NCBI RefSeq assembly: GCF_964204645.1 | Contig: NC_134027.1 | Location: forward strand, 11,336,485 to 11,400,484 | Length of the DNA stretch: 64,000 bases | Direction of reading: 5' to 3' | Source of the DNA: Tubulanus polymorphus | Taxonomy: Eukaryota > Nemertea > Palaeonemertea > Tubulaniformes > Tubulanidae | Shown: in pieces, positions 12,976 through 37,388 of the stretch | How the letters are laid out: the number at the start of each line of letters is the position of its first letter | Position numbering within the stretch: position 1 is the first letter of the stretch | Translations under genes and position numbers: made by a program | The notes under the pieces: generated by a model | The model's input: only the letters and a program-made list of their open reading frames with translations | Told to the model about the DNA's origin: nothing | Database searches by the model: none

Positions 12976-13122
12976 TACTATTATCATTATTATTATCTTT
13001 TATTTCATGGTTCCTACAGTTACATGAATTGAAAATTCCCAGGTTATTCCCAAGTGTTTCATGGAGGATTTTTCAATTTTCCCAAAATAAAAATGGTGTC
13101 TTCATAAAAGTGAAAAGATATT

Positions 13123-13280
13123 CAGGAGAGAATCCCACAATGATAATAAAAAGTCCGAAAATGAAACTTCGAGATAGTAGTTTATTCAACGTTTCGACTA
13201 TATCCTAATAGTCATCTTCAGGAATAATGTGGGATTCTCTCCTCATCGCGTCAACGCGGATATTGTGTTTTACCTATCGT
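13123..13280 (-). mobile_element. hammerhead-bearing inverted-repeat retroelement, copy 1
   Basis: 158 bp flanked by perfect 13-bp direct repeats GTGAAAAGATATT (13110-13122 and 13281-13293), i.e. a target-site duplication. Inside, GGAGAGAATCCCACA (13125-13139) is inverted perfectly at 13228-13242. The minus strand carries a hammerhead core at 13182-13225. The right end (CGGATATTGTGTTTTACC) matches copy 2 at 36998-37251. Long duplications suggest target-primed insertion, and the ribozyme points to a Penelope-like or retrozyme-type parent. Confidence 0.8.
13182..13225 (-). ncRNA. hammerhead ribozyme (type I), likely intact
   Basis: On the minus strand: stem I strand ATTC (13222-13225), core CTGAAGA (13215-13221; fits CUGANGA), then one extra T. 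Stem II GACTAT..ATAGTC and GAAA (13192-13195) follow. AC/GT form stem III, triplet GTT (13188-13190) is the cleavage site, and GAAT (13184-13187) closes stem I. Predicted cleavage follows GTT, between 13188 and 13187. Oddities are the extra base before stem II and a 2-bp stem III, which may require dimers. Confidence 0.75.
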
Positions 13281-13799
13281 GTGAAAAGATATTGTCATAG
13301 TCAACATTTTAGTGGTGATCAGTTGATTAAAAGGTGATTTTCAAGGGAAATCGGTGAAGAAACAAATGTAATACGTGAAATGTAAATGAATTTCCAAAAT
13401 TTACCCGATTTGAGAATTTCTCAAATTCCCAAGTTTTTCCCTATTTCCCTGTTCTGTGGGAACCACGTTTATATACAAATTTAATTACATCATACCACAT
13501 TGCGACAACGATACAAATAGATCATAAACAGCATTGGAATGATTCCCACGACAATACTTCGATTCAATTAAATTCATCATGCTTATTTCACGGAAAAGCA
13601 GAACACGATAAAATCAGGAGAAAAACAAACAATTCAAAAATGAGGGAACGAAAAACAAATTTACAAATATATTGGCGCGCGTTTTTCAATGTTGGCCTCG
13701 CAAAGCCATTAGAGGCCGCGACCAATGAAATGAGAAAAACTATTTGAATTTGAATACCTTTAATACCCTTGATATTCTGAAAAACCCAACGGTCAAATT

Positions 13800-36113: not shown

Positions 36114-36948
36114 ATATTTCAACTCTATTATATTGTATAGATATTCAACTCTGCACATATATACACTATACATATACAGGTATTTTCAGCTATTTCCCTT
36201 TTAACCAACTATCAATACAGCTGATGATTAAGTAAATAAGAAAAAAATAAAAATGAAAAAAAAAGTAGTAGAGAATCTGACGTTTCGAATCAATTCTATG
36301 AGCCATTTTCAAAATGTTCAAAAATGTCCGATTCACTTCTTTGGAAACCAATACGTGATGAGCTGAAATCTTAAATCTAAACCGTATGATAATTTAGCAA
36401 TTAATCATGTATAAAACCAGTGAAGTGGATGAATATCAGATGTTACTGCTCCGATTTCCAAATGATGAAAATCCAGTTGAAAGAGGAGACACGCGGCGCA
36501 ATTGAGAGACAGAGAGAGAAAACAATCGAATAAAACGCTATAAATCATCGTATTGAATTATTCACCATAAACGCGCTTGAAAAGATTTCATTTCATGAAT
36601 TATGTATGCGCGCGCTGAGAAACAATCGAAATCCCTTTCTTTCTCGAGCGTTATCAGAAAGCGCTGAAACGGCCGCGGTTGTCACTAAATGAATCGCGAA
36701 CGGAATCGTTATGATTTATCGCGTGTTCGAACATATTTTCATTTTCGAATCAGCTATCGCGAAGAACACGGGTGCGTATTGTTCCTCGGTATCGTGGGTA
36801 TAGTACAGTCGACGCGTAGAAGATTCACGGCGAATTCCATCAATTTTTCAACTCATTTCACGATGAGCATACAAAACAATTCATGCGAACAGATCCCAGT
36901 ATTGTTTTCTGTTATTTCTTCCAGTGTTATTCTGTTACATTGATAAAA
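36114..36948. other. unassigned
   Basis: Nothing recognisable. CpG-rich words lie around 36600-36700. Confidence 0.4.
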
Positions 36949-37010
36949 TCAAAATCATGTTCCATTACGAGGGAATTTATCAAAATCATGTTCCATTACG
37001 AGGGAAATCC
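36949..37010. repeat. 31-bp tandem duplication across an insertion junction
   Basis: TCAAAATCATGTTCCATTAC followed by GAGGGAA occurs at 36949 and 36980. The repeat covers the target-site duplication and the first bases of the hammerhead element, so it arose after insertion. Confidence 0.8.
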
Positions 37011-37061
37011 CACAATAACAAAGCCAAAATTGAAAAATTCTATACAGGAATGATTGTATTT

Positions 37062-37103
37062 GAGCGACGTTTCGGCTAACAACTGTTAGCCATCATCAGG
37101 CTT
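37062..37103 (-). ncRNA. hammerhead ribozyme (type I), likely intact
   Basis: Minus strand: AGC (37100-37102) pairs with GCT (37063-37065) as stem I. The core is CTGATGA (37093-37099), then T, stem II GGCTAAC-AGTT-GTTAGCC (37074-37091), GAAA (37070-37073), AC/GT stem III and triplet GTC (37066-37068). All invariant core bases are present. There is one extra base before stem II, and stem III is very short. Confidence 0.78.
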
Positions 37104-37107
37104 AGAA

Positions 37108-37147
37108 CGCCTGATAATGGCTAACAGTTGTTAGCCGAAACGCCGCT
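37108..37147 (+). ncRNA. hammerhead ribozyme relic, probably inactive
   Basis: The mirror copy in the other arm. Its core reads CTGATAA (37111-37117), so the invariant G of CUGANGA is A. The triplet region after GAAA is CGCC (37141-37144) instead of CGTC, breaking the A15.1-U16.1 pair. Stem II is unchanged. Confidence 0.7.
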
Positions 37148-37388
37148 CCTCAAATACAATCATTCTGATATAGAATTTTTCAATTTTGGCTTTGTTATTG
37201 TGGGATTTCTCTCATCATCATCATACCCGGATATTGTGTATCTTCTCGTCTAATCATGTTCCATTGACTATTTATTGATGAATTAAGCAACTTAATACTT
37301 AAACATCTATGCGCCTGTATATCACTACAAGACATATTTTGCAATTTGCCACTTTATTCACACCCATGGCATGTGGACATGTTCTTAT

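Follow-up and report, generated by a model that had tools for sequence, protein, structure and literature searches.

The insertion of Penelope-like elements (PLEs) is poorly known, and inverted repeats with a tail on one side have previously been ascribed to self-priming. In LINE-1 elements, twin priming, in which the second target strand primes internally on the RNA, yields a 5' inversion together with a target duplication. The internal site is variable, and the two segments hardly overlap.

Inverted pseudo-LTRs (pLTRs) of PLEs are described from Adineta vaga, where an optional 31-bp tail is reported on one side (PMC3846280). The same 2013 paper argues for self-priming of bdelloid Penelope elements, based on palindromic inverted junctions (PMC3846280). 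For Poseidon of Anolis carolinensis (PAc), PMC11167929 reports that the purified protein cuts and extends both target strands and uses two internal start sites bounding the tail. Hammerhead mutants of PAc still insert in vitro, indicating that cleavage is dispensable (PMC11167929). Most PLE hammerheads are of a minimal form that has no helix III (PMC6155905). Metazoan retrozymes are small non-autonomous retroelements with tandem repeats and canonical hammerheads that are found as circular RNA (PMC7229834).

Here, we analysed a palindromic insertion in a 64,000-nucleotide stretch of Tubulanus polymorphus DNA (the window) and its copies in the 268-Mb genome that contains it, and found that the insertion is derived from the leader of a PLE. 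The copies bear on the open question of the origin of PLE inverted repeats. In many of these small insertions, the start and the inner end of each arm can be read together with the target duplication; they thus form a natural data set that separates models and can be compared with in-vitro work.

Structure of the palindromic insertion

The 254 bp at positions 36998-37251 form a nearly perfect inverted repeat, both arms of which contain a hammerhead-like core (Table 1). The arms pair in two blocks, 36995-37064 with 37149-37218 (70 nt, 91% identity) and 37062-37101 with 37109-37148 (40 nt, 95% identity). We found AATCATGTTCCATT three times, starting at 36953, 36984 and 37252; the copies at 36984-36997 and 37252-37265 enclose exactly 254 bp, which gives a target-site duplication of 14 bp. 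The preliminary description of this locus had claimed an opposed hammerhead pair with a 14-bp target-site duplication, and we verified both the inverted arms and the flanking AATCATGTTCCATT. The third copy, at 36953, was absent from that description and is part of a tandem duplication of the left flank, most simply a product of later slippage.

Table 1. Coordinates of features in the window; positions with a plus sign count from the putative RNA start
Feature	Position	Strand	Remark
Tandem duplication	36948-37006		28-nt copies, spacing 31; spans the left target site plus 9 bases at the start of the element
Left target-site duplication, AATCATGTTCCATT	36984-36997		second of two tandem left-side copies
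Left arm, inverted, without tail; putative PLE leader cDNA	36998-37101	-	maps +114 to +2; outer end at putative start site 1
Predicted minimal hammerhead core of left arm, intact	37066-37099	-	CTGATGA, stem II, GAAAC, GTC; stem II varies among related leaders
Copy-specific centre between the arms	37102-37108		putative junction of two cDNAs
Right arm, PLE leader	37109-37216	+	5' end at +3
Predicted hammerhead core of right arm, damaged	37111-37144	+	CTGATAA; GCC replaces GTC
Putative start site 1 within right arm	37209-37216	+	CTCTCATC here, CTCTCGTC in many A-type copies
PLE tail, right arm only	37217-37250	+	34 nt; ends at putative start site 2 (CTCGTC)
Right target-site duplication, AATCATGTTCCATT	37252-37265		
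Second leader insertion with flanks	13110-13293		core on minus strand

The minus-strand core reads CTGATGA-stem II-GAAAC at 37069-37099, followed by GTC. The plus-strand core is changed at two positions (CTGATAA and GCC), as the preliminary description had stated in reporting a G-to-A change in the core and the loss of the A15.1-U16.1 pair (hammerhead numbering). Of 100 shuffles, none contained the 31-nt core pattern, even when as many as 3 mismatches were allowed. The conserved core CUGANGA...GAAA and the paired stem II, with the minus-strand core intact, are consistent with a minimal hammerhead of the PLE type. Across six related sequences, 92.9% of stem II cells are paired, and three pairs vary at both positions, in one sequence apiece. 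The Rfam hammerhead models, by which a canonical hammerhead would be recognised, gave no match at gathering level in the window and none at E <= 10 for 36900-37300. This absence is consistent with the minimal hammerheads of PLEs (PMC6155905), yet it is no independent support for one.

We also folded this copy. The whole palindrome reached -161.5 kcal/mol compared with a shuffle mean of -50.5 (z = -24.8), whereas single arms alone reached about -25 kcal/mol each; these values apply to the copy at 36998-37251 only. Its transcript is predicted to form one long hairpin, and joint action of the hammerhead pair as a double ribozyme is therefore unlikely. On this predicted fold, a role as a source of dsRNA appears more plausible for such a transcript than paired ribozyme action. 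A microRNA was considered and rejected: the cmscan matches (mir-4662-like and similar) lie below gathering scores and are expected of a long hairpin.

A related insertion lies at 13123-13280, with a hammerhead core at 13191-13221 on the minus strand, presumably the first hammerhead element of the preliminary description. This insertion has the target duplication GTGAAAAGATATT, a tail-less left arm and a short tailed right arm. Its leader family gave 1211 first-look candidates genome-wide, of which 40 were scored. The palindromes of this second family show a one-sided tail and differing centres in 7/7 copies read, including the window copy; six of the loci (L125-L130) were chosen as palindromic pairs, and the tail of L130 was judged by eye.

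Copies in the genome and their source

A genome-wide search with the 254-bp unit, proposed in the preliminary description, gave 903 first-look candidates. Among the best 40, which were scored, 40/40 match on both strands, showing that the palindromic form is a family and not a one-off. An alignment of 19 copies has common outer ends and differing centres. Allowing at most one mismatch, we counted 404 genomic occurrences of the 22 nt that end the tail and 1095 of the arm end, and the reversed-pattern control gave 0 in both cases.

L001-L050 were selected by similarity and do not belong to the neutral sample. The structure-neutral sample consists of the first 60 of 100 exact tail matches listed, out of 404 counted. 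Four of these (L069, L074, L087, L108) were dropped as flank duplicates, leaving 56 distinct tail-bearing copies; L108 is identical to L001, the locus at 36998-37251, and L074 to L003, and both L074 and L108 are dual-arm. An inverted piece was counted if it was at least 14 nt long, and site-1 arms were filtered for outer ends at +105 to +123. One copy with a weak 18-nt piece (L024) passed the dual-arm filter, giving 63 dual-arm copies with it and 62 without it; it is included in the arm-divergence set and in the mismatched-flank control (63 copies).

Most dual-arm copies are flanked by apparent target duplications. The own flanks share a word of at least 8 bp (8-17 bp) in 47/62 dual-arm copies, compared with 39/3906 mismatched pairs of flanks. 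A shared word of this length was also found in 25/33 dual-arm copies of the neutral sample; no shared 8-bp word was seen in 15/62 and 8/33 copies, respectively. The duplications thus vary in length, from about 8 to 17 bp, as in PLEs, and do not have the constant length expected of a fold-back or TIR DNA transposon. The ends GACGAG.../...CTCGTC do resemble short terminal inverted repeats, which would suit a DNA transposon or a fold-back MITE. Such an origin is extremely improbable: the target duplications are not of one length, copies with a single arm or a partial inversion but an identical right end are common, and the PLE unit itself bears arm and tail. We rejected a TIR DNA transposon on account of the variable duplications.

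That PLE unit was found at L067, which holds an open stretch of 817 codons with a match to RVT_1 (4e-12, residues 351-545) and a partial C-terminal match to GIY-YIG (5.5e-6, residues 706-740, profile positions 2-35 of 78). Reverse transcriptase and C-terminal GIY-YIG thus share one frame, as in PLEs, the latter by a partial match. The leader, arm plus tail, stands at both ends of the unit, and this order of leader, open reading frame and leader is the pLTR structure of PLEs. By eye, the first ATG lies directly past the tail, so that the protein would be slightly shorter than the open stretch. We also observed that the B-type leader subfamily is young, with 0.4% divergence between 7 copies, and that four tail ends lie near C1:15.22 Mb.

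The arms of the insertion are PLE leader sequence, and hence belong to a known kind of mobile element and not to the undescribed element type that the preliminary description had proposed. A palindrome with two hammerheads need not mean a new element type. That description had also taken the flanking repeats to show that the palindrome moved as a unit. The repeats do behave as target-site duplications (47/62 against 39/3906), but movement of the palindromic unit is unusual, as the outer ends are near-fixed while centres and lengths vary.

A dedicated non-autonomous palindromic element, with opposed ribozymes and transposing as a unit, is accordingly quite unlikely. Where a target duplication bounds them, dual-arm inserts measure 122 to 510 bp. 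The TATA box described below lies outside the leader, which suggests that a typical palindrome would lack such a promoter of its own, and a transcript of the copy at 36998-37251 would fold as a single hairpin. A new class of palindromic elements was rejected, as centres and lengths differ between copies.

Two pairs of copies do speak for re-copying. L007 and L049 have a common centre and a rare right-arm variant, L011 and L020 a common centre and an arm-specific variant, and the target duplications differ within each pair; L049 has the appearance of a palindrome copy truncated at its 5' end. These shared features suggest that a finished palindrome was probably re-copied as a unit in both cases. 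When 47 centre strings were compared by a dynamic-programming script, 13 pairs passed the similarity cut, but filler and variants are common only to these two pairs. The other 11 pairs have little or no filler or differing filler (L008 and L048, for example, have a filler-free junction in common). Since the outer end is nearly fixed (33/38) and centres and lengths vary by copy, the palindrome appears normally to be created at insertion.

Arm ends and the one-sided tail

The arms begin at two CUCGUC-like sites, 34 nt apart. An inverted piece is present in 38/56 distinct tail-bearing copies of the neutral sample, and 33/38 have its outer end between +107 and +122, counted from the putative RNA start. 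The remaining five (L072, L085, L086, L103, L105) have it at +40 to +64, for which a different start site, truncation of the palindrome or a chance inverted match could each account.

The tail is present on one arm in nearly every palindrome read. A second, inverted tail within 650 bp was found in 0/60 tail-ascertained copies, in which right arms carry the tail by selection. We also ascertained copies by the arm end, and found 18 palindromic pairs (opposite arm ends at most 500 bp apart) among 100 places listed. Exactly one tail was present in 13 of the 14 pairs that were read and none in the other (L123); the remaining 4/18 have a tail on one arm, judged from coordinates alone.

Ten further arm ends (L111-L120) were chosen for having no exact tail match listed beside them, and were read by eye. 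Three are one-tailed palindromes (L116, L117, L119), and three are site-1 arms without a tail (L113, L114, L118). The set also includes a tiny product that draws on both sites (L112), an old tail-plus-arm copy (L120) and a degraded copy (L115). L111, which is outside the neutral sample, combines a site-1 arm with a tail-less arm that starts at neither site. Read by eye, L113 (G000:C1:4873070-4873670) holds no more than 34 bp of leader, beginning at site 1, within a 14-bp target duplication, and represents a near-minimal product of retrotransposition.

A palindrome could also arise by self-priming, in which a single cDNA or antisense transcript snaps back and copies itself. The published case for this route is the argument from palindromic inverted junctions (PMC3846280), and the short centres (1-28 nt) of many copies are in agreement with it. 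L123 (G000:C3:2503846-2504246) has no tail on either arm, its flanking DNA forms a long inverted repeat of about 60 bp by eye, and the copy looks like a fold-back product. A snap-back copy, on the other hand, could contain only what its template arm contains. In 15/33 neutral-sample copies the inverted (left) arm holds sequence that is missing from the right arm while the right arm holds the tail, although some of these 15 might reflect later deletion within the right arm. The inverted arm also starts at a near-constant internal site (33/38). We consider self-priming unlikely, and the non-nested arms led us to reject it as the main route.

The inner ends of the arms are variable. The left inner ends in 33 copies spread from -114, the edge of the reference, to +87. 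A cluster is found at -3 to +10 of the A in TCAGT/TCAAT, with 17/33 left and 14/56 right inner ends. Both reference leaders and one leader of the second family have a TATA box that begins 31 nt before this A. This arrangement suggests that the A of TCAGT/TCAAT/TCATT is the transcription start, and that cDNAs reaching it probably ran off the 5' end of the RNA. Inner ends upstream of -10 (left 6/33, right 11/56) derive from templates reaching further upstream than the putative start.

The predicted hammerhead cut, at +38 to +45, coincides with 0/33 left and 1/56 right inner ends. Since inner ends are nearly absent from this position, the template was apparently uncut RNA; a hammerhead-cleaved template was rejected, there being no pile-up of ends at the predicted cut. 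In three copies (L031, L081, L082), short hammerhead-region repeats follow one another between the arms, which would fit a polymerase that jumped or stuttered on its own ends.

Proposed mechanism of insertion

The copies display near-fixed starts, variable inner ends, target duplications, and one tail in nearly every palindrome read, and the genome holds a PLE coding unit with such a leader. We regard it as well supported that the palindrome was made by dual-strand target-primed reverse transcription of a PLE leader RNA. The RNA would begin at the initiator just upstream of the hammerhead core, and two CUCGUC-like sites, about 111 and 147 nt into the leader, would serve as start sites 1 and 2. 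Both target strands would be cut, and each 3' end would prime reverse transcription of the leader, one at site 1 and the other at site 2. Both cDNAs would then be extended toward the 5' end of the RNA, often reaching it, and their ends would be joined through short homology or small fillers. Such an insertion should leave two head-to-head arms, of which one alone carries the 34-nt tail, flanked by a target duplication of about 8-17 bp. The two arm starts, 34 nt apart, match the pair of start sites used in vitro by the Anolis PLE (PMC11167929).

Whether the two arms come from one RNA was addressed by arm divergence. In 26 A-type copies, a copy's own arms diverge by 3.7% compared with 5.7% between copies, with 0/10000 permutations as low; arm-arm conversion or re-copying of palindromes could also raise identity within copies. 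In 7 young B-type copies, divergence was 0.42% within and 0.43% between copies, which carries no signal of same or different RNA. In two copies (L079, L090), the tailed right arm stops at +113, adjoining site 1, as is expected if the second cDNA met the first on the same RNA. Taken together, this suggests that both arms were probably copied from one RNA molecule.

We lean narrowly towards a broader version of dual-strand priming, in which it is the normal mode of PLE insertion. One RNA would be read twice; the first strand, priming at the inner site, would force the second to the outer site, 34 nt downstream, and the second cDNA would displace or abut the first. If dual priming of one RNA is true, it would explain inverted pLTRs with a one-sided tail without hammerhead cleavage.

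Comparison with known systems

The source of these insertions is an ordinary element of a known kind, the evidence on mechanism is unusually clear, and the novelty is modest. LINE-1 twin priming differs in its variable internal site and its scarcely overlapping segments; in the present copies, the internal site hardly varies and one stretch has often been copied into both arms.

Retrozymes are likewise small non-autonomous retroelements with hammerheads (PMC7229834). They differ from the present copies, which consist of single or inverted arms, have a minimal core and lack any accumulation of ends at the predicted cleavage site. The tandem repeats typical of retrozymes were not found among the sampled copies.

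The likeness to the PLEs of Adineta vaga is closer. As in GIY-YIG PLEs, including those of Adineta vaga, reverse transcriptase and GIY-YIG lie in one frame within a pLTR-ORF-pLTR unit, the inverted pLTR is shorter than the direct ones and has a one-sided tail, and a TATA box with an initiator-like motif and short target duplications are present (PMC3846280). The Adineta vaga examples considered are mostly inverted pLTRs bounding longer elements, whereas most sampled copies here are short and leader-only, with arms that can be mapped to two start sites (PMC3846280). In a partial survey of the literature, we found no published work in which each arm of an inverted pLTR is traced to one of the two start sites.

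PAc provides the closest parallel in mechanism. It shares with the present element two internal start sites of reverse transcription that bound the tail, and a minimal hammerhead at the start of the element (PMC11167929). Two differences are apparent: the start sites of PAc lie about 111-118 nt inside the ORF whereas those proposed here lie just before the ATG, and the strands of PAc show no difference in start site whereas nearly every palindrome read here uses one of each (PMC11167929).
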